Below, piece by piece: positions 4,032-31,135 of a stretch of DNA of 64,000 bases. Position 1 is the stretch's first letter, and each line of letters starts with the position of its first letter. Origin of the DNA: Candidatus Thalassolituus haligoni (GTDB taxonomy: Bacteria > Pseudomonadota > Gammaproteobacteria > Pseudomonadales > Oceanobacteraceae); the NCBI RefSeq assembly GCF_041222825.1, contig NZ_CP139482.1, positions 3,138,001 to 3,202,000 of the forward strand, read 5' to 3'. The notes under the pieces were generated by a model. The model did no database searches, was not told the origin of the DNA, and saw only the letters and a program-made list of their open reading frames with translations. The position numbers were made by a program, and so were the translations under genes.

Positions 4032-4113
4032 TAGGACATCCTGTAAACAACTAACCAAAAAAATCATCGGCCTGAAAACAGGCCGATGATCAATAAACGC
4101 AAGGCACAACAGC

Positions 4114-9373: not shown

Positions 9374-10543
9374 TCAGGCATCACCACCAAATAAATCCCG
9401 CGTGTAGACCTTGGCCTCGACATCAACAAGATCAGGCGACATGCGGTTCGCAACAATCACGTCGCACTCTTGTTTAAACGCATCCAGATCCTGAACCATC
9501 CGAGAATTAAAAAAGCTGTCTTCTTTAAGCACAGGTTCGTATACCACAACCTCAACGCCCTTGGCCTTGATACGCTTCATAATACCCTGAATCGCCGACG
9601 CCCTGAAATTGTCAGAGTCAGACTTCATCACCAGGCGATAAATCCCCACCAGCCTGGGAGTGCGTCGCAAAATCGCATCCGCAATATGATCCTTGCGAGC
9701 TCCGTTCGCATCAACAATGGCGCGAACCAAAGTACTTGGTACTTCCTGAAAGTTTGCCAGCAACTGCTTGGTATCTTTCGGTAAACAATAACCGCCATAG
9801 CCAAACGACGGATTGTTGTAGTGAGAACCAATACGAGGGTCAAGCCCCACCCCTTCGATAATCTGACGGGTGTTCAGGCCGTGCGTCTCTGCGTAGCTAT
9901 CCAGTTCGTTAAAGTACGCAACGCGCATCGCCAGGTAAGTATTGGAGAACAACTTCACCGCCTCCGCTTCGGTCGAATCGGTAAACAGAATATCAATATC
10001 CTGTTTAATCGCCGCATCAGACAGCAGACGGGCAAACACTTGCGCGCGCTCGGAACGTTCGCCAATAATGATTCGTGACGGGTAGAGGTTGTCATGGAGT
10101 GCCTTCCCTTCACGCAAAAACTCCGGAGAAAAAATCACATTGGCACAATTCAGATCCTGCTTCAGCCGCTCGGTAAAACCTACTGGCACCGTAGATTTAA
10201 TAACCATCACCGCATCAGGATTAATAGCCATCACATCACGAACCACACTTTCCACGGTTGAGGTATTAAAGTAGTTGGTTGCGGTATCGTAATCGGTCGG
10301 CGTAGCAATAACGACATAAGAGGCATCAGCGTAGGCCTCTTGCTTATCGAGCGTCGCCCGAAAATTCAGCGACTTTTCTGCCAAATAGTGCTCGATCTCC
10401 ACATCGACAATGGGAGACTGCTTGTTGTTCAGCATCTCCACCTTTGCTGGAATCACATCCAGCGCGATAACTTCATTGTGCTGAGCCAGCAACATGGCAT
10501 TGGACAACCCGACATAACCCGTGCCTGCAATGGCGATTTTCAT
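9374..10543 (-). CDS. ugd: UDP-glucose 6-dehydrogenase
   Basis: 389 residues, the short Ugd form. It oxidises UDP-glucose twice with NAD to UDP-glucuronate, supplying uronic acid for polymer synthesis in the cytoplasm. The N-terminal NAD site is [17 protein letters not shown], the middle has [20 protein letters not shown], and the catalytic Cys sits in [17 protein letters not shown]. The C-terminal UDP-binding part is present and not truncated. It is in the EPS cluster, downstream of the broken manB on the same strand. Confidence is high. Confidence 0.95.
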
Positions 10544-14236: not shown

Positions 14237-15121
14237 TTACATCCCTTCAGACTGAATACTGCAAATTACAGCCTCCAAAGCAATTTTCCAATCTGAAAGC
14301 ACAACCCCTACAGCGACCGCTTGAGAGCAATCCAATACCGAAAATGCAGGCCTAGCCGCTGGAGTAGGGTATTCCGAAGAAGGAATAGCAATCAATTCAG
14401 GACATCTTTCAATCAACCCTGCTCTTAAGGCCTGCTGATGAACCTCTCGGGCAAATGCCCACCAGGACACTGCCACATCTCCAGAAAAATGATAAATACC
14501 CACCAGTTTCTCAGTCACATCTCGATGCAGAAGCGAATAAATAGCCTTCGCTATATCACCGGCATAAGTAGGACACCCGATTTGATCGGATACGACCGAC
14601 AACTGATCTCTTTGCCGGGCCAGTTTGACCATAGTTTTAACAAAATTATTGCCATACTCACTAAAAACCCAGGAAGTTCTGAGAATTACAGCCTCTGGAC
14701 AAGCCGCGAGTACTGCTTTTTCACCAGCTAACTTGGATGCCCCATAAACAGATTGAGGATCCACAGCATCGGTCTCTTTCCATGCAACACGCCCCTCTCC
14801 TGAGAATACATAGTCTGTAGACACATGCACAAAACGGGCGGTATTCTCAGCACACCAGGAAGCCAGTAAAGCTGGACCAACCTCATTGACTCTGTGAGCG
14901 ACATCCGGTTCTGACTCTGCTTTGTCTACCGCCGTATAAGCCGCTGCATTAATAACAATATCTGGCTTAATCAAGTCCAAGGTACTATTAACAGCTGACG
15001 CATCTGTAATGTCCAAATCCGCTGATGACAGTACTTGAAACTCCTCCTTACAACTAGCCAACAATCGAGCCATACTACGCCCCAGTTGGCCGTTAGCTCC
15101 AGTGATCAACCAATGCATCAC
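14237..15121 (-). CDS. rmlD: dTDP-4-dehydrorhamnose reductase
   Basis: 294 residues, an extended short-chain dehydrogenase. It makes dTDP-L-rhamnose from the 4-keto intermediate with NAD(P)H, the last step of the pathway. The N-terminal dinucleotide motif is ITGANGQLGRSMARLL. VHVSTDYVFSGEG and the catalytic YxxxK (VYGASKLAGEKAV) follow, with WVFSEYGNNFVKTM further on. It overlaps rmlC by 4 bp (15118-15121), so translation of C and D is probably coupled. The order in transcription is A-C-D. High confidence. Confidence 0.95.
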   Translation of the reverse strand: MMHWLITGANGQLGRSMARLLASCKEEFQVLSSADLDITDASAVNSTLDLIKPDIVINAAAYTAVDKAESEPDVAHRVNEVGPALLASWCAENTARFVHVSTDYVFSGEGRVAWKETDAVDPQSVYGASKLAGEKAVLAACPEAVILRTSWVFSEYGNNFVKTMVKLARQRDQLSVVSDQIGCPTYAGDIAKAIYSLLHRDVTEKLVGIYHFSGDVAVSWWAFAREVHQQALRAGLIERCPELIAIPSSEYPTPAARPAFSVLDCSQAVAVGVVLSDWKIALEAVICSIQSEGM

Positions 15122-15681
15122 ACTCCCCCTGAGGATAACTGTGCAAGCGAGGCGGCAACTGCATCTTTATCGGAAAGTTGGATTTCGACATCACCTAATT
15201 CATTCAATGGCCATTCAATGGCCACATCTGAATCATTCCAGATAAGACTGCCTTCATCCGACGGATCATAATAGTCAGTACACTTATACTCAAAGTCGGC
15301 TACATCCGAGAGAACCAAAAAACCATGGGCAAGACCTGGCGGAACCCAGAACTGACGTTTATTTTCCTCACTCAGAATAACCCCTTCCCACTGACCAAAA
15401 GTGGGGGAGCCGGGCCGAATATCAACGGCAACATCAAAAACTGAGCCACGAATAACCCGGACCAACTTGCCTTGCGGCTTGGATTTCTGAAAATGAAGTC
15501 CTCGTAATACCCCTTTTCGAGAGCGAGAATGATTGTCTTGTACAAAGGTTTCGTTAATACCAGCCATATCCCGGTAACGCTCTGCCTGGAATGTCTCCAA
15601 GAAAAAGCCTCTTTCATCACCAAACACTCTAGGTTCAATGATAACAACGCCATTTATTGATGTTTCAGTCACATTCATCAA
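15118..15681 (-). CDS. rmlC: dTDP-4-dehydrorhamnose 3,5-epimerase
   Basis: 187 residues, a cupin-fold epimerase acting on dTDP-6-deoxy-4-keto-glucose. Diagnostic blocks are [37 protein letters not shown] with the catalytic His, [18 protein letters not shown] and [15 protein letters not shown]. It overlaps rmlA by 4 bp (15678-15681) and rmlD by 4 bp. The length is normal and no odd features are seen. Confidence 0.96.
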
Positions 15682-16562
15682 ACACCCGCCTCTTTCAATA
15701 TCTTGAACAAGTATCGACCATAACCTGTTTTTCTCAAAGCATTGGCCTCAACCTCCAACTGTTCAGCAGTAATCCATCCACGGTCAAATGCAATTTCTTC
15801 CAAACAGGCTATTTTGAATCCTTGGCGTTGCTCAATGGTATTGACGAACATGCCTGCTTCGATCAAAGAGTCATGAGTACCGGTATCCAGCCAAGCAAAA
15901 CCTCGGCCCAACACCTCCACATTCAGTTTACCTGCTTCTAGATACATGTTATTGATATCGGTAATCTCAAGCTCACCACGAGGAGAAGGCTTCACCGCTT
16001 TAGCGACATCGACAATATCGCCATCATAGAAATACAAACCGGTAACAGCATAGCTAGACTTGGGATTGGTTGGTTTTTCTTCAATGGAAAGTGCCTTGCC
16101 ACTACCATCAAACTCTACAACCCCAAATCGCTCGGGGTCACTTACGTGATAGCCAAAAACAGTGGCTCCATCTTTACGCTCCACAGCATTGACAAGATTG
16201 GTACTAAAATGATGGCCATAGAAAATGTTATCTCCCAACACCAGCGCAGCCGGTGCCCCAGCTAAAAATTCCTCCCCAATCAGGAATGCTTGAGCCAGCC
16301 CATCAGGGGATGACTGAACCGCATAGCTAAAGCGTACACCGTACACCTTACCAGACCCTAACATGCGCTGAAAAGACGGCATATCTTCAGGAGTGGAAAT
16401 AATAAGAATTTCTCTGATACCTGCCAACATAAGCACAGATATAGGGTAAAAAATCATTGGCTTGTCATAGATTGGTAACAATTGCTTGGACACACCTCGT
16501 GTGATGGGGTGCAACCGCGTCCCAGAGCCACCAGCCAAAACAATCCCTTTATATGAACTCAT
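15678..16562 (-). CDS. rmlA: Glucose-1-phosphate thymidylyltransferase
   Basis: 294 residues, the normal RmlA length. It joins dTTP and glucose-1-phosphate to dTDP-glucose. The signature [20 protein letters not shown] opens the protein, then [46 protein letters not shown] and [15 protein letters not shown]. The start at 16562 has GGAGAGA just upstream. It is the first gene of rmlACD and is transcribed away from rmlB. Confidence 0.97.
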
Positions 16563-16656: not shown

Positions 16657-16748
16657 GTATGATTGTCTTCGGACAATAGAAAGTAGAGAAAACTTAAAAA
16701 ATAGCGCTTAAAAACAGCAAAATATATACCTAACTTGGGTCAAGCACA

Positions 16749-17807
16749 ATGAAATTTTTAGTCACTGGTGGGGCCGGCTTTATTGGAAGTGCCGTTATCC
16801 GACACCTGATCAATGAGACAGACCACGCCGTCATCAACTTGGATTGCCTTACTTATGCTGGCAACCTAAATTCACTAGATTCAATATCTCAGAATAAACG
16901 CTACACATTCACAAAAGTAGATTTACGAAATGCTGCCGCGATAGAAGAAGCCATCAAAAAGTACCGGCCGGACATTATCATGCACCTGGCTGCCGAAAGT
17001 CACGTTGATCGCTCAATCGATGGCCCTGACGATTTCATTCAAACCAATATTATTGGCACATTCAACTTACTTGAAGCGACTCGAAAGTTCCATTCAACAC
17101 TCCCAAAGGAACGGCAGCAACAGTTTCGATTCCATCACATCTCCACTGATGAAGTATACGGTGATCTAGAAAGTACGGATGAGTTATTCACAGAAAACAC
17201 ACCATACTCTCCCAGCTCTCCATACTCAGCTAGTAAGGCATCATCTGATCATTTAGTGAGAGCATGGGGTCGAACCTACAACCTGCCAATAGTTGTCACT
17301 AATTGCTCTAATAATTATGGACCCTTCCATTTTCCTGAAAAATTAATTCCACACGTGATTTTAAATGCACTGCAAGGAAAATCACTGCCGGTATATGGAA
17401 CAGGCTCTCAGATCCGGGATTGGCTTTATGTAGAAGATCATGCAAGAGCTCTAATAACAGTTGCGACCCAAGGGGAAGCTAATGAAACCTATAATATTGG
17501 CGGTCATAACGAAAAATCCAATCTTACAGTAGTGGAAACAATCTGCAGTCTACTAGAAGAACTATCACCCAAAAAGCCAGTAGGAGTGCAATACTACCGA
17601 GATTTAATTACTTTTGTAAAAGACCGGCCTGGACATGATCAGCGCTATGCGATTGATGCCACTAAAATCCAAAAAGAACTTAACTGGGAACCGACAGAAA
17701 CCTTTGAAAGTGGAATCCGAAAAACTGTCCAATGGTACCTAGAAAATGAAGATTGGTGGCTGTCCGTACTAAATGGGGACTACAGACTAGAACGACTCGG
17801 AAATTAG
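16749..17807 (+). CDS. rmlB: dTDP-glucose 4,6-dehydratase
   Basis: 352 residues of the extended SDR family. It converts dTDP-glucose to the 4-keto-6-deoxy intermediate, step two of dTDP-rhamnose synthesis. The NAD motif is [41 protein letters not shown], the catalytic [15 protein letters not shown] and [17 protein letters not shown] are all present. It is divergent from rmlACD, an uncommon split of the four rml genes. Its AT content is higher than that of rmlACD, so it may have come separately. Function secure. Confidence 0.96.
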
Positions 17808-17993: not shown

Positions 17994-18725
17994 TTATTTA
18001 TTTTTCAAAAGAGGTATAACCATTAATAAAAAGAATTTCATACCACCAACAACAAATCTTTTCCACAATCTAAAAGGATCCATAGCTAGACGCCAAATCC
18101 ATTCACACCTCAGTTTCCTGACAAATACTGGGGCTCTTTTTTCATAACCAGTTATAAAACTCAAGATAGCTCCTCCAGATATGATTAAAGATCCATTTTC
18201 ATTTTCGTAGTTTTTTTTAAGAAAAAATGCAAGCTTCTCCTGTTTTGGCATCCCCATAGCAAGTATTATCAAACTAGGTTTAACCTTAGAAACAAATTCC
18301 AAGTATTCATTGAAAGTATATTCATATCCATTCAAAGTACCAACGACATTACAATTGAAGCGTTTATCAATAACCTTCTGAGCTTCACAAAGAACTTCAT
18401 CCTTACTTCCCAGAAGAACCACATTCTGCTCACAATCTAAAGAATTTAAAATTTTTGGTATTAAATCTGTTCCATTCAAGTTTTCACCTGGGGATATACC
18501 ATAAAGCTTCATACATATTTCAATACCGACTCCATCTCTCAATAAGAAGTCAGACTCCAACAAAGCTTCCTTAAATTCTGAATCTTTGTCACAAATATTC
18601 ACCGCATGCATATTAAGAAATGCAAGAGTACTAATACGACAATTAATTATTTTCTTCAACTCATCAACAAAAACACTTGACTCCACAATATAAATATTAC
18701 TTAAAAGCCCTCTAATTAACGCCAT
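17994..18725 (-). CDS. WecG/TagA/CpsF-family glycosyltransferase (GT26)
   Basis: About 243 residues. The ATG at 18725 is preferred over a GTG at 18737 because GGAAG lies a proper distance upstream; it then overlaps the preceding GT2 gene by 10 bp. Family blocks are STLAFLNMHAVNICDKD, LLRDGVGIEICMKLYG, LNGTDLIPKILNSL, VVGTLNGYEYTF, LAMGMPKQEKLAF and SGGAILSFITGYEKRAPVFV. A hydrophobic C-terminal tail probably holds it to the membrane. Members transfer ManNAc, ManNAcA or glucose to lipid-linked acceptors; the donor cannot be told from sequence. It is the last gene of the sulfated-EPS gene train and is AT-rich. Confidence 0.9.
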   Translation of the reverse strand: MALIRGLLSNIYIVESSVFVDELKKIINCRISTLAFLNMHAVNICDKDSEFKEALLESDFLLRDGVGIEICMKLYGISPGENLNGTDLIPKILNSLDCEQNVVLLGSKDEVLCEAQKVIDKRFNCNVVGTLNGYEYTFNEYLEFVSKVKPSLIILAMGMPKQEKLAFFLKKNYENENGSLIISGGAILSFITGYEKRAPVFVRKLRCEWIWRLAMDPFRLWKRFVVGGMKFFLLMVIPLLKNK

Positions 18726-19615
18726 ATATTCTTCCACCCCTTAACATACACAGGCAACATCAGACGCATAATAACTGCCTTATAACTACCAGCATAATGT
18801 TTATTAATAAAAAACTTTAAAGAATTAAACTTCAACGCTGCGACCTTGGCATTATACCTTCCAGAACTATTCCAGCCATGAACATGCACAACAGGGTTAG
18901 TATTTTGCTGAACAACCCTAAAGCCTTTTGACTTCGCGACTAGACATAAGTCTTCATCCTCTCCATACAAAAATATATTCTCATCAAAGAGCCCATGCAT
19001 TTTCACATAATCACCACGAACAATCATTGATGCTCCACTAATCCACTCCACATCAGATATTGAATAATCAGGAGCGTACATTTTCTGATTTTCTAGATAA
19101 GATCGAACATCAGAGCTCATCAAACATAACAATTTCAGTAAAAATGGAACCCTCATAATTAGAGCCTTCAGATCACCAAAGAAAGGAAATATTTGCTTTA
19201 TCCATTTGCTTGGAGTTGAATACGTAAAGGAAGATGTCTGAGGGCTTCCATCTGGATATACCAGTTTAGTACCAACAATAGCGACATCATCATAAGCATC
19301 AAATACAGAAATAACCCTTGCTAGATTAAATTCTCCATCAAAGTATGCATCAATATTAAATATAAAATAAAAATCAGAACAATATCGATTACAGGCTATA
19401 TTATTTGCCACACCGAAGCCTAAATTTTCAGGCAATTCTATCACATCAAGACCTTCTATTGCATTTGCAATTTCTACCGATCGATCTGTAGAAGCATTAT
19501 CTACAAGTACTATTTTTACATCGCCATCCATACTCAATTTCATTATACTCCGAACACAATCTTCAATATATTGTTCGGAATTATAGCTAACCAACACAAA
19601 TAGAATATCATTCAT
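18716..19615 (-). CDS. GT2-family glycosyltransferase, rhamnosyltransferase-like
   Basis: About 299 residues. The ATG at 19615 overlaps the upstream sulfotransferase stop as ATGA, so this start is preferred over one four codons earlier. The GT-A fold is visible: LVSYNSEQYIEDCVRSIM, VDNASTDRSVEIA, ELPENLGFGVANNIA, IFNIDAYFDGEF in place of the DxD, and the acceptor-side motif GLFDENIFLYGEDEDLC. This pattern is shared with WbbL-type rhamnosyltransferases, which fits the rml genes nearby, but specificity is inferred. Apart from the GT26 gene it is the only nucleotide-sugar glycosyltransferase of the locus. Confidence 0.88.
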   Translation of the reverse strand: MNDILFVLVSYNSEQYIEDCVRSIMKLSMDGDVKIVLVDNASTDRSVEIANAIEGLDVIELPENLGFGVANNIACNRYCSDFYFIFNIDAYFDGEFNLARVISVFDAYDDVAIVGTKLVYPDGSPQTSSFTYSTPSKWIKQIFPFFGDLKALIMRVPFLLKLLCLMSSDVRSYLENQKMYAPDYSISDVEWISGASMIVRGDYVKMHGLFDENIFLYGEDEDLCLVAKSKGFRVVQQNTNPVVHVHGWNSSGRYNAKVAALKFNSLKFFINKHYAGSYKAVIMRLMLPVYVKGWKNIWR

Positions 19616-20493
19616 TTTCCCACCCACCGGCTATAATCCCAAGAAATCAAACCTGAAAGTTTCTCGATATCGTCAGAAAACCATCTCTCAAAATAATGGC
19701 GATCAGACTCATCAATGTTCATTTTTACTGCAGGCTTTAGAAATTGAGCCCTTATTTTATGTCTAGTAGATGGAGGCAATATCGACTTAAAGAACTTCCT
19801 TAATGCGAAATTATGCAACAATGTTGAATATAAAATATTTTTTGGAACAGCAGCAGGATTACTCACAAGTAATGGTTTATCATTCCATTTCTCATCAATT
19901 TCCAACCACTGCAACAAATTATCCATAAATATATTTCCATCTTTAATAAAGTCTTCAAAAAATCCTACATAAACGTTATCTTTCCCAAAATAACTATAGC
20001 AATTCAACACAGCCTCGTAATAAAGACTGCATTCAACGTACATGTGGTTAAAACCGAAGCCTTTATCCGTTTTCTTATAATCCATCAAGACTGCATTTCT
20101 AAAATCAAGTTTTGTAACACCTTCTCTATAATCCATCAACCAATGAGAATACATTCTAGAAACAGGCTCACGCAGCATAATAATAACTCGAGGTGAAATT
20201 GCTTGCTTAGCGATACCATCCAATGCTCTACCTTGATATAAATATGAAACAGATGAATCCAACCAATATTTTACTCCATTGGATTCAAAATCATACATTG
20301 ATAAATACTCATTCTTAGAGAGAGATCTCACAGATGGTACATTATTACCTATTTGGGAAAAATAGTGAGGTTCCTTCTCTATCGGCGATTGTATTGTTTT
20401 TATCAAAGATAAATTATCATGCAATGATGTAGTCCCCGCCTTTGGCGTACCAACAACATAAAGATTTGGATATAACTCTTTCACTTTAATCAT
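19612..20493 (-). CDS. PAPS-dependent sulfotransferase (first of two)
   Basis: 293 residues. The 5'-phosphosulfate loop GTPKAGTTSLHDNL sits near residue 15 and the 3'-phosphate segment IIMLREPVSRMYSHWLMDYR near residue 105, both typical of Golgi-like carbohydrate sulfotransferases (Sulfotransfer_1, NDST-like). KEPHYFSQ follows the P-loop at the position of the usual catalytic region. No signal peptide or membrane helix is seen, so it should act in the cytoplasm on lipid-linked or nucleotide-linked sugar. It is coupled to the following GT2 gene by an ATGA overlap and comes just after an acyltransferase gene. Sugar position unknown. Confidence 0.9.
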   Translation of the reverse strand: MIKVKELYPNLYVVGTPKAGTTSLHDNLSLIKTIQSPIEKEPHYFSQIGNNVPSVRSLSKNEYLSMYDFESNGVKYWLDSSVSYLYQGRALDGIAKQAISPRVIIMLREPVSRMYSHWLMDYREGVTKLDFRNAVLMDYKKTDKGFGFNHMYVECSLYYEAVLNCYSYFGKDNVYVGFFEDFIKDGNIFMDNLLQWLEIDEKWNDKPLLVSNPAAVPKNILYSTLLHNFALRKFFKSILPPSTRHKIRAQFLKPAVKMNIDESDRHYFERWFSDDIEKLSGLISWDYSRWVGK

Positions 20494-20496
20494 AAT

Positions 20497-20919
20497 TCAC
20501 CGATTGATAATCCTTCCAAGTTTACCAAGTTCCACCCCTTCCCTTATAACTTTTGCCGGATTTCCAGCGACAATACTATTTGGTGGAACATCTTTTGTAA
20601 CCACGGAGCCTGCGGCAACAATAGATTGAGGACCAACCGTTACACCTGGCAACAAAATAGACCCCGCACCGATAAAACTATTTTCTTTCACTGTAGTAGT
20701 TTTCCAAATTTTCCGAGTAAAATCATGCGTTAATATAATCGCATCAAATGTCACATGTGCATTTTTTTCTATCACAACTCCTTTTGAATTAGTAAAATCT
20801 ATCCTTGCTTTAAAAGACACACGTGCTGAATAATCTATATTACACCCTCGAATTCTCAAAAAAACAATCCTTAAAAAAAGAAGCACATTCCTCACTTTAT
20901 AAAACATAACTCTAATCAA
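20497..20919 (-). CDS. Left-handed beta-helix acyltransferase (hexapeptide repeat), short form
   Basis: 140 residues from a TTG at 20919. I favour this start because GAGG lies 7 bp upstream; an in-frame ATG at 20907 has no clear binding site. The C-terminal half shows hexapeptide turns (FIGAGSILLPGVTVGPQSIV, VVTKDVPPNSIVAGNPAKVI), the signature of O-acetyltransferases of the WbbJ/Maa/NodL group, and HDF supplies the usual active-site His. The N-terminus has a hydrophobic stretch (LLFLRIVFLRI). It probably acetylates a sugar of the repeat unit. It lies 4 bp before the sulfotransferase gene. Confidence 0.85.
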   Translation of the reverse strand: MIRVMFYKVRNVLLFLRIVFLRIRGCNIDYSARVSFKARIDFTNSKGVVIEKNAHVTFDAIILTHDFTRKIWKTTTVKENSFIGAGSILLPGVTVGPQSIVAAGSVVTKDVPPNSIVAGNPAKVIREGVELGKLGRIINR

Positions 20920-20928
20920 AACCTATCC

Positions 20929-22167
20929 TCATTTATTATCAAAACCATAATATTTAAACGCCATCACCGCCAAAGCAACACCAAACACCCCCCCGCCCAT
21001 AGCCATTGACGATGAAAATATCAAATCAAAACTCTCGATCACAACAACATAACAAGCCGTCAAAACCAAAGCATTTTCGCTTTTCCTGAGAGCTACTGCC
21101 CTACTAAGGTATACGTAATAATATATACCAATAACCACCAGAGAAAAAAATCCGAACCTGTAAAAAACACCAAAAATACCGACATCCGACAAATAAAAAT
21201 TATCATTATAAATCGGTAAAAACCCATCTTTCCACTGCAACGATAACGCGCCATAGCCTACAGGGTTTTTCAAAATCTCATCAATTATAATACCAATCGT
21301 AATCTCTCTAGTTCTTGGACCAGAATGTTCAACCGCATCCTCGTATAATAATAAAAGTTTATCAAGCTCACTCTGAAATACATCCGGATATATTAAAAAA
21401 ACAACAAACACCAAAGGAACTACAGCAATAAACACTGAGAATATACGATCTATACGCTTTCTAAAAACAAACAATGCCGAAATAAACATTGTTGCCATCA
21501 ACGTCCTAGTCTGAATAACAAACCAAACATATAATGCACAATAAAATATAATAGCAGCCCATAAATATCGACCATTCTTCCTGAAATTCAGCAAAGAATA
21601 CACAAAGACCCAAACAATAAAAGCAGTTGCAATTCGGAACCGCCCTCCTCTAAACCCCTCATACATCTCATACACATCATTATATGATTTACCATCTACT
21701 TTAAATGAAAGATCAACTCTTGGACTTATCAAGCCAAAATAATAAAACCAACCAACCAATGATGAAAAAAAGAAACCCAAGACAATATAATTTCCCAATA
21801 TACTCAATGATACTCTAGAATATAAAAGAATATAAAATACCGGAAAAAAAACCAAATATAATATCACTCTACGTTCTTCTAAAACCCCAAAATAAAAAGG
21901 CTGACCATGAAACAACCAAGCAAGAATTGGAGATACAACTATCCATCCGATAACATATAGAACTACAAAATACTCCTCCTTGACCCCAATCCAACACCTA
22001 TTTAAAACAGCTAGCCAAAGGAACACAGCAACCAATATAACAAGAAAAAATTCACGTGCAAATGGAACCCCGGAAAGCTTATTATCCGTCAAGAAGAAAA
22101 ACTCATTAACCATCATAAAAAAAAACAATAAAATTATTTTTTCAATGACCGATTTTCTTATATACAT
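20929..22167 (-). CDS. wzy: Wzy-like polysaccharide polymerase (multi-spanning membrane protein)
   Basis: About 412 residues from the ATG at 22167; a TTG seven codons upstream has no better binding site. There are ten or more hydrophobic helices, many Phe and Tyr, and a large loop in the second half (about 270-310) containing GPRTREITIGIIIDEILKNP then VGYGALSLQW. This loop layout and the location between two modification genes fit O-antigen polymerase/ligase-type proteins that join flipped repeat units in the periplasm. Wzy sequences are poorly conserved, so the call rests on topology and context. The gene is very AT-rich. Confidence 0.75.
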   Translation of the reverse strand: MYIRKSVIEKIILLFFFMMVNEFFFLTDNKLSGVPFAREFFLVILVAVFLWLAVLNRCWIGVKEEYFVVLYVIGWIVVSPILAWLFHGQPFYFGVLEERRVILYLVFFPVFYILLYSRVSLSILGNYIVLGFFFSSLVGWFYYFGLISPRVDLSFKVDGKSYNDVYEMYEGFRGGRFRIATAFIVWVFVYSLLNFRKNGRYLWAAIIFYCALYVWFVIQTRTLMATMFISALFVFRKRIDRIFSVFIAVVPLVFVVFLIYPDVFQSELDKLLLLYEDAVEHSGPRTREITIGIIIDEILKNPVGYGALSLQWKDGFLPIYNDNFYLSDVGIFGVFYRFGFFSLVVIGIYYYVYLSRAVALRKSENALVLTACYVVVIESFDLIFSSSMAMGGGVFGVALAVMAFKYYGFDNK

Positions 22168-22192
22168 AAAACAAGACCCAGATATCAATATT

Positions 22193-23074
22193 TCATTTTA
22201 TCAAATAACCACCATTATATTCCAGCTCATCAATAAGAGAGTACTCTTTATTATAATGAATCTTTAACTTATTTATCATTTCCTCATCCAGAACGGGCAT
22301 CTTATCATCAACTTTAGTATTCCATTGATCCATCCAATACATAACCCTCCTTCTATAACGAAATGGAATCACCCCTCTCCAAATACTCTTTAAAGTTTTA
22401 AATTTCTTAATATCATCCAAAACATTAAATTTGCGTACACCACCCACATGAAACCTCTCAGACATCACATCTGACGCAACAAAATCTACCCCTAAAAATT
22501 CAGATATAACCTTGACAGCATCAATAGTATTCTCAGACAGAAAATTATCGTTCATCATCAAAAAATTTCCATTTTCAACCCAAGAATAATCATTGACGAC
22601 TCGATGATATTCCCCCCAGACTAGGTATGAATTAGTTTCTGTTGGGCTATTTTGAGCAGAAATCATTGAATCAGACATGAACAATTGTTGAAAAAGCTGA
22701 TTGATTTCATTATTCTCGACGCCTCTTTTTTTATTCATACGGTATTGAGATATAGCTCTATCAACAGGGTCTCTCAATAAATATATGATTTTAATATCTC
22801 TATTATGTGCTTTCAGCCTAGCTGAACTAATATTAGAGTAGCAACTATACGCTGGAGTAGACTTACCCCATTTTAATTCATCATTCGCCTCTTGAAAAAA
22901 CTCATGAAAAAACCAATTAACTCCTTTCAAGTAACGTTCATCATCTGAGAAGAAAATTGCTTCCTTTTCGGGAGGCAAGAAGATTTTAGAATTTTCTCTA
23001 AGATACATATGCAAAGCAGTGGTTCCTGCTTTTTGCGCACCTATAACCACAAAATCTAGTTTATTTTTTTTCAC
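22193..23074 (-). CDS. PAPS-dependent sulfotransferase (second of two)
   Basis: 293 residues from a GTG at 23074 with GGGG upstream. The PAPS loop VVIGAQKAGTTALHMYLREN and the downstream IIYLLRDPVDRAISQYRMNK are clear, as is PPEKEAIFFSDDERYLKGVN after the P-loop. It is as long as the first sulfotransferase but clearly diverged (GAQKAG instead of GTPKAG), so it is probably specific for a different sugar or position rather than a recent duplicate. Cytoplasmic. It is followed directly by the Wzy-like gene. The acceptor is unknown. Confidence 0.91.
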   Translation of the reverse strand: MKKNKLDFVVIGAQKAGTTALHMYLRENSKIFLPPEKEAIFFSDDERYLKGVNWFFHEFFQEANDELKWGKSTPAYSCYSNISSARLKAHNRDIKIIYLLRDPVDRAISQYRMNKKRGVENNEINQLFQQLFMSDSMISAQNSPTETNSYLVWGEYHRVVNDYSWVENGNFLMMNDNFLSENTIDAVKVISEFLGVDFVASDVMSERFHVGGVRKFNVLDDIKKFKTLKSIWRGVIPFRYRRRVMYWMDQWNTKVDDKMPVLDEEMINKLKIHYNKEYSLIDELEYNGGYLIK

Positions 23075-23283
23075 ACATACCCCAAAAAAAACTCTGAATA
23101 TTCATATATAACAACACTCTACCATTTAATCGCCAACGGAGAATTCTTCGCTTATTATTATCCCCTATACATTGAGTATCAAGGATACATTAAAAACAAA
23201 AAATATCACTACCAGCAATCGTATTTCCATCCTCACTTCTACTTCAAAAAACTACAGTCACTTAAAATTCGAACTTTACATTT

Positions 23284-23877
23284 TTAGCATCTATATTTTA
23301 TAATTTTAGCCGGAACACCACCAACTATTGCATATTCTGGGATATCTTTTATCACTACTGCACCTGCTGCAACAACAACGCCATGTCCAATATTTACCCC
23401 TTTCAAAATAACCACTCCATGGCCAATCCACACATCATTTCCAATTTTTACTGGCGCAGTTTTAATACCTTGAACAGCCATAGGGGCATTCACATCATCA
23501 ATAACATGATCTGTATCCCTAATTGTACAATTAGGTGCGATCATGACGTGATCACCAATAATGACACTCTCATTACAACCCACAATAAAACCTTCTCCAG
23601 CAAAGCTATTTTCTCCGAGTTCCAAATAACCACTTCCTTGAATCAGTGTATTTCCTGAAAACCGAGATTTCTTCTTCATTTTCACCAGTAACTTTAAAGG
23701 TCTATTTGTAAACTGCCTTATTTCAACTCGACCGGTAACATGAGAACCAATTTCCATATCGACATGAGGGAAGTTCCATATTCTAAAAACAATGGTGCTA
23801 GTTATTTTTTTGAAAACTGAAAAGAACTTCACAATCCATTTATAATTACTTGTCAAACGCTCACACTTAGCACTCAT
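23284..23877 (-). CDS. Hexapeptide-repeat acyltransferase (WcaF/WbbJ-like)
   Basis: 197 residues with AAGGGG five bases before the ATG. The C-terminal two-thirds is a left-handed beta helix: [57 protein letters not shown] and [20 protein letters not shown]. The DTDH segment holds the catalytic His of this O-acetyltransferase group. It would transfer acetyl from acetyl-CoA to a sugar hydroxyl in the cytoplasm. It sits 27 bp after cysN on the same strand and 209 bp before the second sulfotransferase. Confidence 0.87.
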
Positions 23878-23904
23878 ACCCCCCCCTTAGCACACAATAT
23901 ATTT

Positions 23905-25308
23905 TTATTTAAAAAACCATTTACGAGCTAAAATTTCAACCTCACAATTAAACATCTCTAGTCGTTTCTCATAACTCATATCAGCAATCGATTTGGCAAC
24001 ACCGCCTTCTGCCAATTCACGTACCATACCCGCAGCAATAGTGATATTGGAGATACGATCGATAATAACTAATGAGCCATTACCTGGAACCTGTCTGTAT
24101 TCGTCCAGCGCAACAGGTGCATTTAGGGAGATGGTGACCAGGCCAACTTCGTTGAGGTTCAGTTCAGTCGCGTCGAGATGTTCCATCGTATTGACATCGA
24201 CACGATGCTGAACACTGTCTACCGTGCCATAAACGCTCTTGGTGCCCACCTTGAACAGGTATTCTTTGCCTGTTTTCATCGGGGTTTCGTGCATCCATAC
24301 CACTTCGGCCTGGTAGCTATCGCCAAATAATGGAGCTTTACCTGTGTAAATCAAGTCACCACGGGAGATGTCGATTTCATCTTCCAGTGTCAGGGTAATG
24401 GCTTCGCCAGCAATGGCCAGGTCGAGATCTCCATCGGCGGTGACGATGCGGCTGACTTTACTGGTTTTACCAGAGGGTAAGGTGGTGATTGTTTCGCCCG
24501 GGCGAATTTCACCCGCTGCAATGGTGCCGCAAAAACCTCGAAAATCCAGGTTAGGGCGGTTAACGTACTGCACGGGAAAACGGAAGCCTTCGAATGCGTC
24601 AGCCTTGTTGCTTTCAATAAGTTCCAGCAGCTCGACCATGGTTGGGCCGGTGTACCAGTCAGTGCTGGTGCTGCGGTCTACCACGTTGTCGCCTTTGAGC
24701 GCAGACAGTGGAATTGGGTGGATATTGTTAAAGCCCAATGAACGTGCAAATTCAGTGTAATCTTTGCTGATTTGTTCAAAAACAGCTTGATCAAAATTGA
24801 CCAGATCCATTTTATTAATGGCAACGATGACGTTTTTGATTCCGAGCAGGCTGACGATATAGCTATGGCGGCGAGTCTGCGTCTGTATGCCTTTGCGGGC
24901 GTCAATCAGGATAACTGCCACGTCGCAGCTGGAGGCACCCGTTGCCATGTTGCGGGTGTACTGTTCGTGCCCGGGGCAATCAGCAATGATGAATTTACGT
25001 TTTTCGGTAGAGAAATAACGATAGGCCACATCAATGGTAATACCCTGTTCCCGTTCAGACTGCAGACCATCGACCAGCAGGGCCAGGTCGAATTCTCCGT
25101 CGGTGGTATTGAACTTTTGCGAGTCATTTTTGATGGCGGCCAGTTGATCTTCAAAAATTAATTTGGAGTCGTGCAGCATGCGGCCAATCAGGGTGGATTT
25201 GCCATCGTCGACATTACCGCAAGTCAGGAAGCGCAGAATGTCTTTTTCTTCGTGTTGTTTCAAGTAGCCGAGGATGTCGGCAGCGATCAAGTCTGATGCG
25301 TGAGCCAT
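23905..25308 (-). CDS. cysN: Sulfate adenylyltransferase subunit 1 (GTPase)
   Basis: 467 residues. With CysD it makes adenosine 5'-phosphosulfate from ATP and sulfate, driven by GTP hydrolysis. GTPase motifs are present: G1 GNVDDGKSTLIGRML (about residue 28), G3 DCPGHEQYTRNM and G4 AINKMDLVNF, followed by EF-Tu-like barrel domains. There is no C-terminal APS kinase fusion, in keeping with the separate cysC. CysN is separated from cysD by 363 bp, an unusual gap for subunits of one enzyme. Its GC content is higher than that of the EPS genes that follow. Confidence 0.96.
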   Translation of the reverse strand: MAHASDLIAADILGYLKQHEEKDILRFLTCGNVDDGKSTLIGRMLHDSKLIFEDQLAAIKNDSQKFNTTDGEFDLALLVDGLQSEREQGITIDVAYRYFSTEKRKFIIADCPGHEQYTRNMATGASSCDVAVILIDARKGIQTQTRRHSYIVSLLGIKNVIVAINKMDLVNFDQAVFEQISKDYTEFARSLGFNNIHPIPLSALKGDNVVDRSTSTDWYTGPTMVELLELIESNKADAFEGFRFPVQYVNRPNLDFRGFCGTIAAGEIRPGETITTLPSGKTSKVSRIVTADGDLDLAIAGEAITLTLEDEIDISRGDLIYTGKAPLFGDSYQAEVVWMHETPMKTGKEYLFKVGTKSVYGTVDSVQHRVDVNTMEHLDATELNLNEVGLVTISLNAPVALDEYRQVPGNGSLVIIDRISNITIAAGMVRELAEGGVAKSIADMSYEKRLEMFNCEVEILARKWFFK

Positions 25309-25671
25309 ATTGTTGCCTTTTGATCCATCCAGCTTTACTGGAGTATCTATAGAGTAAGTTTGTTTCGATCAGGTCACACAGTGGCCGAATCGTGAATTTG
25401 TTTTCCTGCTGGCCTGTTTTGTAACGTGTCAGAATAAAAGGCCTGCGTTTTACCATTCAGATAAATTCTTATAGCGATGGGCAAAGTGCCCATCCTACGT
25501 TGCGCTTTGCAACATTCATCTCTTGCAACATTCATCTCTTGTAACACTCACCTCTTGCAACGCTCCCTTTTGTATCACTCACCACTCACTTCCGACTGGT
25601 GGTGTTTTGGTAGGCGATGCCTTACCTACAAGTAGGAAGTAGGTTCTTTTATCTGAACGGTGTTCATCGTT
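25309..25671. repeat. 363-bp gap between cysD and cysN with a degenerate 16-bp tandem repeat
   Basis: Around 25508-25570 four imperfect copies of a 16-bp unit GCAACATTCATCTCTT follow one another, with substitutions in the third and fourth. Nearby are an inverted pair GGGCAAAGTGCCC (25478-25490) and palindromic GTAGG/CCTAC segments near 25612-25645. No coding frame is convincing. The gap breaks the normally contiguous cysDN pair, and may contain an insertion or RNA-level control. Confidence 0.5.
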
Positions 25672-26586
25672 TTAGAAGTAACCTTCCATTTTTTTCTTTT
25701 CCATCGAGCCGGATGAATCGTGGTCGATGGCACGGCCTTGGCGCTCGGATGTCGTTGTCAGCAACATTTCCTGAATGATTTCTGGCAAGGTGGCAGCTTC
25801 GGACTCAACCGCACCGGTCAGTGGGTAGCAGCCCAGCGTGCGGAAACGTACCATTTTTTCTTGTATTTCTTCGCCGTCATGGATCGGCATACGCTCGTCA
25901 TCGACCATAATCAGCATGCCATCACGTTCCACAACCGGACGCATGGCGGCGTAATACAAGGGTACAATTTCGATGCTTTCGAGATAGATGTATTGCCAGA
26001 TGTCCAACTCAGTCCAGTTGGAGAGCGGGAAGACACGAATGCTTTCGCCTTTGTTGATACGGCCGTTGTAGATATTCCACAACTCGGGGCGCTGGTTTTT
26101 CGGATCCCAGCGATGGTTTTTGTCGCGAAAGGAATACACCCGCTCTTTGGCTCGTGACTTTTCTTCGTCACGACGTGCGCCACCAAAGGCGGCATCAAAG
26201 CCGTATTTGTCCAGCGCCTGCTTCAGCCCCTGGGTTTTCATTACGTCGGTGTGCACCGAAGAACCATGGGTAAACGGGCCAATGCCCTGATCTACGCCGT
26301 CCTGGTTGACGTGAACAATCAGATCCATGCCAACCTTGGCCGCCATGGTGTCGCGGAAGCTGATCATTTCCTTGAACTTCCAGGTGGTATCCACATGCAT
26401 CAAAGGGAACGGTGGCTTGCCAGGAAAGAAGGCTTTGGTGGCCAAATGCAGCATCACGGCGGAATCTTTACCAACGGAATACAGCATCACCGGATTATCA
26501 AACTCGGCCGCAACTTCGCGGATGATATGGATACTTTCGGCCTCAAGCTGTTTGAGGTGAGTCAGGCGTTTTTTGCTGATAGTCAT
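25672..26586 (-). CDS. cysD: Sulfate adenylyltransferase subunit 2
   Basis: 304 residues from the ATG at 26586; a GTG three codons earlier overlaps the likely binding site. It is the ATP-pyrophosphatase-fold catalytic subunit of ATP sulfurylase. The PP-loop is [19 protein letters not shown], followed by [32 protein letters not shown] and [15 protein letters not shown]. It ends in [12 protein letters not shown], the usual CysD C-terminus. It starts 35 bp after cysQ. Complete and secure. Confidence 0.97.
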
Positions 26587-26621
26587 AATCGTCACTTCTT
26601 CGAATGTGGGCTGGCGCTAGC

Positions 26622-27443
26622 TCAGGCTTGTTCAGGTTGGGCCAGTTGGGTGAATACCGCGCTCCAGCGCTCACCGGCCTTAGCACATACAATAAAATAC
26701 GGGTTAAGTAAGTCTTCTTTTTGACCGTACTGTAATTTTTCCAGTCTTGGGGTTAATACCTGACCCCCGGCATGTTCAACAACGGCTTGCGCTGCTGCCG
26801 TATCCCACTCGCAAGTAGGTGCCAAACGCGGATAAAGATGTGCAACACCTTCTGCCACTAGGCACAGCTTCAAAGAGCTGCCCATCGATACCAGGTTAAC
26901 CTTTCCCAGCTGTTGGGAAAATGCAGCCAGTGCTTCAGCACCATGACTGCGGGAGCCAACTATATTCCAGGGCTGTTCTGCTTGCGGCTCACTGGCCACA
27001 CTCAGCTTAACGGCTTCTGCGGCGCCATCCTGGCGGTAGGCACCAATCTCATCGGCCGCAAAATACATACGATCCAATGGCGGGCAATACACGACTCCCA
27101 GTACGGCGCGGCCATTCTGTATCAAGGCGATATTGACGGTAAATTCATCATTTTTCTTGATGAATTCCTTGGTGCCATCCAGCGGATCAACCAGCCAATA
27201 GGTTTGCCATTGACGGCGTTTTTCCCAGGTTATGTCTTCTTTTGGAGATTCTTCCGACAGCACCGGATAGTCACTGATTTTTGCCAGGCTATCGCAAATA
27301 ATATGATGTGCGGCGAGGTCAGCCTCAGTGAGCGGGCTGGAATCACTTTTTTCATACTGAGCAAAGTCGGTGTTGTAAATTTCCAGGATCGCAGCGCCCG
27401 CAGTGCGGGCAATATCGCTAACCTGATTAACCAATGGCTGCAT
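26622..27443 (-). CDS. cysQ: 3'(2'),5'-bisphosphate nucleotidase CysQ
   Basis: 273 residues from the ATG at 27443. The longer open frame overlaps cysC and has no family match, so this start is preferred; it overlaps the cysC end by 17 bp. CysQ hydrolyses PAP, the by-product of sulfotransferases and PAPS reductase, and removes a strong inhibitor. Motifs of the inositol-phosphatase fold are SPLTEADLAAHHIICDSL, VLSEESP, WLVDPLDGTKEFIKKNDEF and CEWDTAAAQAVVEHAGGQVL. Its place between cysC and cysD fits a PAPS-consuming pathway. Confidence 0.95.
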   Translation of the reverse strand: MQPLVNQVSDIARTAGAAILEIYNTDFAQYEKSDSSPLTEADLAAHHIICDSLAKISDYPVLSEESPKEDITWEKRRQWQTYWLVDPLDGTKEFIKKNDEFTVNIALIQNGRAVLGVVYCPPLDRMYFAADEIGAYRQDGAAEAVKLSVASEPQAEQPWNIVGSRSHGAEALAAFSQQLGKVNLVSMGSSLKLCLVAEGVAHLYPRLAPTCEWDTAAAQAVVEHAGGQVLTPRLEKLQYGQKEDLLNPYFIVCAKAGERWSAVFTQLAQPEQA

Positions 27444-28059
27444 CGGAACCTTCCTTAACGGGTTTGAGGTAACCGTGCTGATCAAGGTAGTCAATGACCT
27501 GTTGCGCGGCTTCTGGAATACTAACATCGTAGTTTTTAATATAAATTTCAGCGGCATCCGGTGCTTCGTAAGGCGAGTCAATACCGGTAAAGTCCTTGAT
27601 TTGCCCTGCTCGTGCCTTTTTGTAGAGACCTTTGGGATCACGGGTTTCACACACTTCTATCGGTGTGTCGATATGTACTTCGATGAATTCACCGTCTGAC
27701 AGCATTTGGCGAACCATCTCGCGATTGCTTTTGAACGGGGAAATAAACGCCGTCAGTACAATTAATCCGGCATCAACCATCAGATTGGCCACTTCCCCCA
27801 CCCGACGAATATTCTCGATGCGGTCTTCTTCGCTGAAGCCCAAATCGCCACACAAACGGTGCCGTACGTTATCACCGTCCATCAAGTAGGTGTGTTGCAG
27901 GCGTTCAGCCAGCATACTTTCAACCGCACCCGCGATAGTCGACTTGCCCGATCCGCTCAGGCCAGTAAACCAGAGCAGACAGGGACGCTGCTTTTTCATA
28001 TAAGAGCGAATGGACTTATCCACCGCATGATTGTGCCACACAATATTTTCGTTTTTCAC
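27427..28059 (-). CDS. cysC: Adenylylsulfate (APS) kinase
   Basis: 210 residues from a GTG at 28059, chosen because AAGGAG stands 6 bases upstream and the family N-terminus (NIVWHNHAV) begins just after. It phosphorylates APS to PAPS, the sulfate donor. P-loop: LWFTGLSGSGKSTIAGAVES. Also DGDNVRHRLCGDLGFSEEDR, AFISPFKSNREMVRQML and GLYKKARAGQIKDFTGIDSP. It begins 28 bp after the permease gene and overlaps cysQ. High confidence. Confidence 0.97.
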   Translation of the reverse strand: MKNENIVWHNHAVDKSIRSYMKKQRPCLLWFTGLSGSGKSTIAGAVESMLAERLQHTYLMDGDNVRHRLCGDLGFSEEDRIENIRRVGEVANLMVDAGLIVLTAFISPFKSNREMVRQMLSDGEFIEVHIDTPIEVCETRDPKGLYKKARAGQIKDFTGIDSPYEAPDAAEIYIKNYDVSIPEAAQQVIDYLDQHGYLKPVKEGSDAAIG

Positions 28060-28087
28060 TCTGGCTCCTTGTAAAAACGGCTCATCT

Positions 28088-29872
28088 CTAAAATGACCAG
28101 ACAACCGGTATAACACTGATGGAAGTGACCGCGACGATAATACTCAGCGGTGTCCCGAACTTAACGTAATCCATAAAACGATAGCCACCTGGCCCCATAA
28201 CCATCAAGTTGGTTTGGTAACCGGTTGGCGTCATAAAACTGGCGGAAGCCGCGACCATAACCGCAATGGCAAAGGGTTCGTAATTGACACCCAACACTTC
28301 GGCAGTACTTAAACATATCGGCAGCATAATGATGGCCGCAGCGTTGTTGGTCATCATTTCAGTCAGCAGCACTGTGGCCAGGTAAACGGCAATCAGTGCA
28401 CTGAGTGGCGAGTCTGCGACGGCCAGTAATCCACTGGCAATATCTTTGGCCAACCCCACTTTTTCAACGGCGGCTCCTAACCCGAAAGCACAGGCGACTA
28501 CCAGTAGTATTGAATAGTCAATCGATTTGCCTGCGTCTTCGTACGTGATGCATTTCATCGCCAACATGGCACCTGCTGCCGCTATCGAGCTGACAAGGAT
28601 ACTGGTCATTCCACTTCCAGAGGCGATCAGCATGACTGCAAATATCGCCAATGCGGGCAAAGCCTTGGTCTCATCCGCCAGAGGAGGGGTGCCGAGCTTG
28701 CTGACCAGCAGAAAATCCCGGCTATTACGATGACGCATTAAAAAACCTTTCTGGGCTTCTACCAGTAAAGTATCACCTTCACACAGGACAAGATCGCCCA
28801 ACTTTCCACGTAACCGCAGCCCGTGGCGCGATACGCTCAGTACGACGGCGCTGTAACGATGACGGAAGCGCGCTTCACGAATTGTCTGGCCAATCATTGG
28901 GTTGGAGGGTGAAAGTACGGCTTCGAACAGGCGTCGATCCGAACTGGAACCGTTCAGTTTAAAGCGTTGATCATTGGATAATACCAGGCCATGAATGTTA
29001 CGCAGCTCGAGCACAGATTCCGGACTACCGGCAAACACCAATCGGTCACCGGCCTCGAGTACAGTTCGTGGACGTACCGCAGAAATAATCTGTTCTTCCC
29101 GTTCAATTTCGACCAAGTACAATCCGGGCAAGTTACGTAGGCCTGCCTCTTGAATATTTTTACGTACCAGCTCGCTGCCGGGTTGAATCACCATTTCAAC
29201 CAAATATTCACGTACCTGGTCAAATTGCTCGACCGAGCTTTCTCTGTTTGGCAATAGGTAGCGTCCTGCAACCAGAATATAAATCAACCCCAGAACAGCA
29301 ACCGGAACCCCTACCCAGGCAATTTCAAACAGACCAAAGCCAGCGTATCCGCTTTGTTGCAGCATGCCGTCGACCACCAGATTGGTGCTGGTACCGATCA
29401 ATGTGCAGGTGCCACCAAGAATGGAAGCGTAACTGACGGGAATAAGAATACTGGACAGGCGAATGGAAAAGCGCTTGCTTTGGCTTTGCAGCAGCGTGGT
29501 GAACATCGCAACGACTGGGGTATTATTGACCACTGCGCTCAGAATCGTAGTGACAGGTAATACACGCAGACTGGCTGAGGTCTGATTTTTTGGGCTGCCG
29601 ACCATATAACGCCGCAACACCTGGGTAGCACCGGATTCTTTTAACCCACCAACCACGACGTATAACGCTGCAATGGTAAAGATGCCAGGGTTGGAAAAAC
29701 CGACAAATGCATCCGCTGGTGCCAGTACGCCACCAAGCAGCAACATCATCAGTGCCGCGGTAAACAGTTTTTCCGCCGAAGCCAGATTCAACGCCAAGCC
29801 CACCAGTACGACGGCGAGCAAACCGGCAACAAAAACAGCATCTATCAGACTGTTGCTGAGACCCAAGTCCAT
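28088..29872 (-). CDS. SLC13/DASS-family anion permease with two TrkA-C domains, probable sulfate importer
   Basis: 594 residues. Two blocks of membrane helices (about 1-200 and 400-594) flank two RCK_C/TrkA-C domains (about 205-380; for example NIQEAGLRNLPGLYLVEIER and LSPSNPMIGQTIREARFRHR). The family includes sodium-coupled sulfate and dicarboxylate carriers, and this form with internal TrkA-C domains is often found in sulfate-assimilation gene groups. The conserved tail has MVAASASFMTPTGYQTNLMV, with the SNT-like Na/anion site. Being the first gene before cysC, cysQ, cysD and cysN, it most likely imports sulfate. Substrate is inferred from context. Confidence 0.85.
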   Translation of the reverse strand: MDLGLSNSLIDAVFVAGLLAVVLVGLALNLASAEKLFTAALMMLLLGGVLAPADAFVGFSNPGIFTIAALYVVVGGLKESGATQVLRRYMVGSPKNQTSASLRVLPVTTILSAVVNNTPVVAMFTTLLQSQSKRFSIRLSSILIPVSYASILGGTCTLIGTSTNLVVDGMLQQSGYAGFGLFEIAWVGVPVAVLGLIYILVAGRYLLPNRESSVEQFDQVREYLVEMVIQPGSELVRKNIQEAGLRNLPGLYLVEIEREEQIISAVRPRTVLEAGDRLVFAGSPESVLELRNIHGLVLSNDQRFKLNGSSSDRRLFEAVLSPSNPMIGQTIREARFRHRYSAVVLSVSRHGLRLRGKLGDLVLCEGDTLLVEAQKGFLMRHRNSRDFLLVSKLGTPPLADETKALPALAIFAVMLIASGSGMTSILVSSIAAAGAMLAMKCITYEDAGKSIDYSILLVVACAFGLGAAVEKVGLAKDIASGLLAVADSPLSALIAVYLATVLLTEMMTNNAAAIIMLPICLSTAEVLGVNYEPFAIAVMVAASASFMTPTGYQTNLMVMGPGGYRFMDYVKFGTPLSIIVAVTSISVIPVVWSF

Positions 29873-31099: not shown

Positions 31100-31135
31100 A
31101 GAACTGTATAAACGAGTGCCGAGTAACGAGGTACT

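Follow-up and report, generated by a model that had tools for sequence, protein, structure and literature searches.

A polysaccharide locus of Candidatus Thalassolituus haligoni with its own PAPS supply and a very probably sulfated product

Background

In rhizobia, a dedicated second ATP sulfurylase and adenosine 5'-phosphosulfate (APS) kinase, NodPQ, feed a single sulfotransferase pathway with NodH, the product of which is the Nod factor, and NodQ is a fusion of CysN and CysC. Here we describe a locus of Candidatus Thalassolituus haligoni in which genes for sulfate activation, sulfotransferases and polymer synthesis form one gene train. It lies in a window of 64,000 nucleotides, positions 3138001-3202000 of a 4.38-Mb single-contig genome, and coordinates below are those of the window unless stated otherwise. 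Judged by its genes, it encodes a surface polysaccharide pathway of the Wzx/Wzy type, the product of which would be sulfated from the locus's own 3'-phosphoadenosine 5'-phosphosulfate (PAPS); since a putative sulfate importer and the enzymes of activated sulfate are encoded beside the polysaccharide genes, we consider the polysaccharide very probably sulfated. Unlike NodQ, CysN (467 amino acids, aa) and CysC (229 aa) are products of separate, unfused genes.

In Cobetia marina KMM 1449, nuclear magnetic resonance and Fourier-transform infrared spectroscopy showed the capsule to be sulfated, on rhamnose according to the former, and the cluster, as ours, combines cysN/cysC, cysD, cysQ, sulfotransferases, rhamnose and mannose supply and glycosyltransferases, together with a sulfate permease, for which our locus has a putative counterpart; unlike our unfused Wzx/Wzy locus, it encodes an ATP-binding cassette (ABC) transporter (kps) capsule and a cysN-cysC fusion, and the accessible text does not treat assimilatory copies, APS reductase or a portable block (PMC11766843). 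Vibrio sp. KMM 8419 also carries second copies of cysC, cysN and cysD together with sulfotransferases in a sulfated-capsule cluster, a pairing that its authors regard as a hallmark of sulfated polysaccharide synthesis, and the clusters of strains of the same species were completely different; it differs from our locus in having an ABC transporter and PAPS genes apart from the sulfotransferase region, and neither a permease nor SLC13 is mentioned in the accessible text (PMC11641403). Cluster VI of Campylobacter jejuni HS:19, for which roles in sulfate import, PAPS synthesis and the modification of surface molecules have been proposed, has cysD, cysN, an anion permease, cysC, a sulfotransferase and a glycosyltransferase in a row as a similar arrangement, but belongs to another phylum, has a putative product and is described without CysQ in the text at hand (PMC8743553). 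The synechan (xss) cluster of Synechocystis PCC 6803, for which mutants were tested, shares two sulfotransferases of distinct subfamilies, Wzx/Wzy and a rhamnose-containing sulfated polymer, whereas no supply genes are described and terms for PAPS, adenylyl or sulfate transport do not occur in the accessible text (PMC8205485). Finally, the CysDNC branch point of Mycobacterium tuberculosis, from which APS leads to cysteine and PAPS to sulfate transfer, resembles the split described here, but that organism has one shared CysDN, a CysN-CysC fusion and a sulfolipid product (PMC4373884).

The locus is therefore one of an already published kind, the polysaccharide cluster that brings along the genes for making PAPS, and relatives and published loci rule out that it is unique. 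A preliminary description, made from the letters of the window, had presented sulfated bacterial polysaccharides as known in only a few well-studied cases and a locus with its own sulfate importer and PAPS supply as notable, which overstated the rarity: the Cobetia, Vibrio and Campylobacter loci are built on the same principle, and two of the three include a permease. The synechan paper considers sulfated polysaccharides among bacteria exclusive to cyanobacteria (PMC8205485), a view corrected here and already contradicted by the Cobetia and Vibrio papers. Searches of the open-licence literature returned no paper on an Oceanobacter polysaccharide with a sulfotransferase, and none joining APS kinase, APS reductase, sulfotransferase and exopolysaccharide. 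The present data add the genome-wide split (an own CysDN lineage, a single APS kinase and an APS-reductase-like CysH) and, more tentatively, the picture of a stable block beside an exchangeable cassette carrying unrelated sulfotransferases.

Results

Gene content of the train

Twelve open reading frames (ORFs) occupy positions 17994-29872, all on the minus strand and at the positions given in the preliminary description:

28088..29872, minus strand: SLC13/DASS-like permease with TrkA_C domains, first gene of the block (PF03600, CitMHS, 243 bits, over cut-off; PF02080)
27427..28116, minus strand: CysC, APS kinase, 229 aa (TIGR00455, 258 bits, cut-off 139)
26622..27650, minus strand: CysQ, phosphatase of adenosine 3',5'-bisphosphate (PAP), 342 aa (TIGR01331, 287 bits, cut-off 229; PF00459)
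25672..26595, minus strand: CysD, ATP sulfurylase small subunit, block copy (TIGR02039, 540 bits, cut-off 397; tree)
23905..25308, minus strand: CysN, ATP sulfurylase large subunit, block copy, 467 aa (TIGR02034, 639 bits, cut-off 336; tree)
23284..23877, minus strand: hexapeptide-repeat acyltransferase, opening the variable cassette (PF00132, 46 bits; best NCBIfam model WbbJ, below cut-off)
22193..23074, minus strand: sulfotransferase ST1 (PF00685, 57.3 bits, over cut-off)
20929..22188, minus strand: polytopic membrane protein with 11 hydrophobic segments, Wzy-like by position and hydropathy only
20497..20919, minus strand: hexapeptide-repeat acyltransferase (PF00132, 38 bits)
19612..20493, minus strand: sulfotransferase ST2 (PF00685, 34 bits, cut-off 22)
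18716..19627, minus strand: family 2 glycosyltransferase, GT2 (PF00535, 65 bits)
17994..18737, minus strand: WecG/TagA/CpsF-family glycosyltransferase (PF03808, 130 bits; TIGR00696 over cut-off)

Ten of the twelve names are backed by Pfam or NCBIfam, and the gene list of the preliminary description stands for these. The other two names are less secure and weigh against the reading of the locus given above: the Wzy-like protein had no match in Pfam or NCBIfam at E 0.001, and the permease scored 103 bits with the DASS model TIGR00785, below its cut-off of 198.6. We regard the SLC13-like permease as a probable sulfate importer. CysC, CysQ, CysD and CysN, on the other hand, all exceed curated cut-offs, so the complete PAPS supply with a PAP-removing CysQ was read correctly. 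The same applies to the PAPS loops of ST1 and ST2 (GTPKAGTTSLH and GAQKAGTTALH, both present), to ugd (9374-10543) and rmlDCA/rmlB (14237-17807) as neighbours, and to the lack of cysH and sulfite reductase at this place, the window containing no NIR_SIR protein and no PAPS_reduct-family protein except CysD.

The starts given above for CysQ and CysC probably lie too far upstream. The PF00459 domain of CysQ begins at residue 72 of 342, which would put the true start nearer 27440, and the CysC model begins at about residue 20-27 of 229. Gaps of 363 nt between cysD and cysN and of 209 nt between ST1 and the first acyltransferase interrupt the train, so it may or may not be transcribed as one unit. 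The cys genes have a GC content of 49-51%, the polymer genes one of only 34-35%, and this step, together with the cassette comparison below, rules out a simple operon of one lineage. Scans for promoter-like sites (46 against 30.7 expected) and terminator-like sites (9 against 11.6 expected) were uninformative.

ST1 and ST2 are 26.5% identical over 196 columns. Both matched the bacterial sulfotransferase of PDB entry 3rnl (E 8.7e-12 for ST1, 4e-19 for ST2), and ST1 also matched heparan sulfate 3-O-sulfotransferases (E about 1e-9) in the PDB sequence search. A KE..FS stretch is invariant in ST1, ST2 and the sulfotransferase of O. kriegii, and its glutamate may correspond to a catalytic base of the 3-O-sulfotransferases. 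ST1 alone found no relative in the genome-contig collection, and its fold, predicted from 3 alignment rows, reached a predicted local distance difference test score (pLDDT) of 47.7. The genome encodes three PF00685 proteins, namely ST1, ST2 and a 522-aa protein with tetratricopeptide repeats outside the locus (L005/L009, 7984-9552); PF00685 frames of similar length (526-565 aa) also occur in G001, G003, G005 and G006 (genome labels below). In G006, a 925-aa ORF with a PF00685 match (C66:1-14000, L110, 2580-5357) is flanked by an 856-aa repeat protein and by TolC/ABC/HlyD-like ORFs, named by size and order only, so that it sits in an apparent type I secretion operon.

Sulfur assimilation elsewhere in the genome

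The genome was searched for a second cysDNC set and for cysH, as the preliminary description had suggested, and a second CysDN and a CysH were found outside the window. Three PAPS_reduct-family proteins are encoded: the window CysD, a second CysD followed by CysN (genome 2764850-2767369; 87% and 61% identical to the respective window copies) and a single CysH (genome 2519613-2520377) adjoining cysB. The second pair rules out that the window cys genes are the cell's sole set. In contrast, only one APS kinase was found genome-wide, a single PF01583 match, and this is the window CysC. Two NIR_SIR proteins lie outside the window; the 561-aa one, which contains the domain twice, is probably a sulfite reductase, a nitrite reductase being possible. 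Besides the window CysQ, two PF00459 proteins were found, at genome 3469652 and 1474624; the inositol-phosphatase-family match at the latter place (1474624-1475403) contains one internal TAG.

The models do not agree on the substrate of CysH. It exceeds the cut-offs of TIGR02055 for APS reductase (268 against 235.3), TIGR00434 for cysH (179 against 165) and NF002537 for phosphoadenylyl-sulfate reductase (273 against 154) and stays under those of TIGR02057 for PAPS reductase (147 against 254) and TIGR00424 (309 against 553). Its sequence carries ECC, GCQPC and ECGLH, which we take to be the cysteine pattern of the Fe-S, APS-using reductases. In such enzymes the CC and CxxC pairs bind an Fe-S cluster, and they are missing in the E. 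coli type; some cluster-bearing reductases reduce both APS and PAPS. APS is the likely substrate of CysH. With another cysDN in the genome and a CysH of APS-reductase character, cysteine is probably made without any need for PAPS. The PAPS made at the locus would accordingly be for transfer, as cysteine synthesis appears to run apart from it.

The supply block in related genomes

The source genome (G000) was compared with those of an uncultured Oceanobacter (G001, of the same species as the source by the collection's grouping), O. kriegii (G002), O. mangrovi (G003), Oceanobacter sp. 1_MG-2023 (G006) and two further members of the genus Oceanobacter (G004, G005). The order permease-cysC-cysQ-cysD-cysN recurs at 67-99% identity (tblastn) in five of these seven genomes (G000, G001, G002, G003 and G006), and the complete block is also present in Shewanella corallii; because of this repetition the order is not due to chance. 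In G004 and G005 the block was absent from the stretches around their CysC. Each of the seven genomes has one APS kinase and a CysH-like protein (matches sorted by score and length), and CysD-like proteins number two in each genome with the block and one in each genome without it. As judged by gene order and composition, the locus is in two parts, this block and an exchangeable low-GC polymer cassette.

Two further high-scoring permeases were traced among the 44 genomes of the family: the one in G020 belongs to a complete block, and the one in G009 stands with cysC and cysQ (permease-cysC-cysQ) without cysDN within a 20-kb stretch. In trees of seven block and seven assimilatory copies, a single branch separates the two kinds, with support of 100/100 for CysN and 100/99 for CysD, the G020 CysN being flagged as a long row and several inner forks being weak. 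Of 26 related loci compared by tblastn, five carry the complete block (L058-L061 and L063), 20 a permease without a complete block and one (L083) a permease and CysQ fragment. The block gave no match to plasmids.

Two of these loci deserve separate mention. In Parathalassolituus penaei (L062, 9971-11545) a shortened permease, and in an uncultured Alteromonadales genome (L083, 450-1655) permease and CysQ fragments, adjoin a polysaccharide cassette without cysC, cysD or cysN in the stretch; both are apparent remnants of the block. The other Oceanobacter blocks and that of Shewanella corallii keep the spacer between cysD and cysN (25309-25671, 363 nt) but not its sequence, and no conserved element was noticed when this gap was aligned across blocks; in the G020 block, unlike those of Oceanobacter, cysD and cysN directly abut.

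Probable exchange of the cassette

Compared with G001 (minus-strand blastn, E 1e-10), the window is 98.0% identical over 23948-33349 and 93-96% over 4768-11012, whereas between 11012 and 23948 only manC aligns (12590-14029, 82%). At the protein level, a WecG relative in the G001 cassette is 24% identical. A cassette of roughly 13 kb between cysN and ugd, with the genes for sugars, polymerase and sulfotransferases, thus differs between strains of one species and seems to have been swapped. Low GC (about 0.32-0.45) begins after cysN also in G001, G002, G003 and G006, and the supply block appears to be a stable unit beside swapped cassettes.

The sulfotransferases differ accordingly. Over the eight blocks, one that exceeds a Pfam cut-off adjoins four: two PF00685 proteins in G000, one in G002 (PF13469 and PF00685), one in G003 (PF03567) and, directly after cysN, one in Shewanella corallii (PF13469), which has a second upstream, below the cut-off. 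The remaining four blocks, two with a weak candidate and two in which none was found, weigh against the pairing. G001 offers a 248-aa candidate with GYPRSGNT that rests on the motif, with no Pfam match, a best PDB sequence hit at E 0.52 to an unrelated protein and a predicted fold of pLDDT 36, and G009 a PF13469 match of 19.8 bits against a cut-off of 27. No sulfotransferase was found in 12 of the 15 cassette ORFs of G006 (Pfam, E 0.1), nor a motif in its listed ORFs, nor was one found among three cassette proteins scanned in G020. On these scans, of 12 of 15 ORFs in G006 and three proteins in G020, we reject a rule of strictly one sulfotransferase per block.

Other observations also weigh against a supply reserved for transfer. 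CysH exceeds the cut-off of NF002537, a model labelled for PAPS reductase, so assimilation may use PAPS as well; no CysT in the genome exceeds its cut-off (best 152 against 246 bits), so the window permease might also serve cysteine synthesis; G004 and G005 have a CysC without the block; and the third sulfotransferase of the source genome could also use PAPS. The preliminary description had considered the cys genes dedicated to transfer. The second CysDN and the APS-reductase features of CysH agree with this, but exclusivity is not strict, given the third sulfotransferase.

Part of these data would also fit an extra assimilation set, serving cysteine synthesis or sulfate scavenging, that lies beside the polysaccharide genes by chance. 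Yet the genome has another full CysDN and, in CysH, a protein with features of an APS reductase, both outside the window; CysQ removes the by-product of transfer; and the block keeps its place at the polysaccharide locus as the cassette changes and is found again beside polysaccharide genes in other families of the order. We therefore consider an extra set very improbable, even with the CysT and NF002537 results, the two of eight blocks beside which no sulfotransferase was found, and an SLC13 permease and cysC that stand side by side on a Parabacteroides plasmid, no sulfotransferase being listed under that match.

The preferred reading, a PAPS supply for sulfation of a polysaccharide, gains from a survey of the order, where 59 of 390 genomes, the source included, encode an ST1 relative (25-41% identity). 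Of the 58 others, 32 with an APS-kinase place among the matches listed were counted and 26 left out. In eight of the 32, no more than 35 kb separate an ST1 relative from the APS kinase, compared with 0.78 expected by random placement (Poisson 1.7e-6); it should be underlined that the 35-kb limit was chosen after the data had been seen and that four of 32 remain at 11 kb. The eight genomes represent six genera, and their stretches all contain relatives of polysaccharide genes and CysC, six a permease relative (33-51%) and four CysQ. Polysaccharide loci that join a PAPS supply to a sulfotransferase thus recur in the order.

Assembly and sugar genes

The assembly genes extend past the train, with wzx, ugd, wcaJ, a BBP2 porin, wza and wzz/BY-kinase at 1250-12494; the left part of the window, where the porin lies, also encodes a beta-CASP metallo-hydrolase. 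The genes recognised are:

1250..3472, minus strand: Wzz/BY-kinase (PF02706, PF13807)
3480..4109, minus strand: Wza-type export protein (PF02563)
5983..7386, minus strand: WcaJ, initiating undecaprenyl-phosphate glucose phosphotransferase (TIGR03023, 530 bits, over cut-off)
9374..10543, minus strand: Ugd-type nucleotide-sugar dehydrogenase, the conserved left edge of the cassette (PF03721/PF00984/PF03720; TIGR03026 over cut-off)
11223..12494, minus strand: Wzx-type flippase (PF01943, 46 bits)
12932..14029, minus strand: manC-like gene with a broken frame, shorter than the 479-aa copies of related genomes (TIGR01479, positions 1-353 of 467)
14237..16562, minus strand: rmlA, rmlC and rmlD, dTDP-rhamnose supply (PF00483, PF00908, PF04321)
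16749..17807, plus strand: RmlB, dTDP-glucose 4,6-dehydratase, divergent (TIGR01181, 502 bits, over cut-off)

With an initiating sugar-phosphate transferase, a flippase, Wzz and Wza all present, the locus is by its predicted genes of the Wzx/Wzy type. Besides WcaJ, only two glycosyltransferases were recognised (GT2 and WecG), and a short repeat unit is therefore plausible; wzx, ugd and rml point to rhamnose and a uronate in the polymer, while the two sulfation sites and the acetylation that the preliminary description had proposed are putative. On the other side of the train, two similar genes stand in tandem (30461-31099, 212 aa, and 31319-31951, 210 aa), as they do in G001; they matched no NCBIfam model, and no Pfam family at E 0.001.

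That ST1 and ST2 are interleaved with the polymerase, acyltransferase and glycosyltransferase genes of one train, and that the export end of the locus has wza and wzz and no O-antigen ligase, argues that they act on this polymer. They could instead modify another surface glycan sharing the cassette, such as an O-antigen, a lipid or a protein glycan, and leave the polymer itself unsulfated: acceptors are unreadable from sequence, the authors of the Vibrio sp. KMM 8419 study assigned one of three sulfotransferases to the O-antigen in the accessible text (PMC11641403), and one sulfotransferase of G006 lies in the apparent secretion operon mentioned above. We consider such a different acceptor unlikely.

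The manC frame (12590-14029) stops after 365 residues; the copy in G001 has 479 aa, and its C-terminal portion is matched in a different frame. Either the gene is truly decaying or the sequence contains an error, and with the break a supply of GDP-mannose through manC is doubtful. A former sulfation locus now decaying in the source strain, so that no sulfated polymer is made, would agree with the broken manC and with the block remnants beside unrelated cassettes in Parathalassolituus penaei and the uncultured Alteromonadales; however, the reading frame of every gene in the train is uninterrupted, the cys enzymes and ST1/ST2 have intact motifs, and rmlABCD replace the need for GDP-mannose, which makes decay extremely unlikely in our view.

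Discussion

Sulfation of the polysaccharide itself, which we favour, would proceed as follows. Sulfate would enter through the SLC13-like permease, CysDN would convert it to APS and CysC would convert APS to PAPS. ST1 and ST2, as soluble cytoplasmic enzymes, would then sulfate presumably two positions of a lipid-linked repeat unit that WcaJ may begin with glucose and that would contain rhamnose and probably uronic acid, while CysQ would clear the PAP left over. Flipping, polymerisation and export would fall to Wzx, Wzy, Wzz and Wza. Cysteine synthesis would run separately, from the second CysDN to the APS-reductase-like CysH.

The conserved block may moreover act as a fixed docking unit, in which successive cassettes bring unrelated sulfotransferases (Sulfotransfer_1, _2 and _3 and an unclassified one) onto the same PAPS supply. 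We put this forward tentatively, as a possibility somewhat less likely than not, because it is based on eight blocks with two exceptions. If true, surface sulfation itself would be kept while the glycan beneath it changes, and the PAPS branch would be cut off from cysteine at APS. The single APS kinase and the APS-reductase-like CysH predict that without cysC surface sulfate would be lost and no cysteine auxotrophy would follow. Bacterial polysaccharide sulfotransferases have hardly been assigned, and a constant PAPS supply beside a changing cassette would provide natural swaps within one genus for matching sulfotransferase to acceptor.

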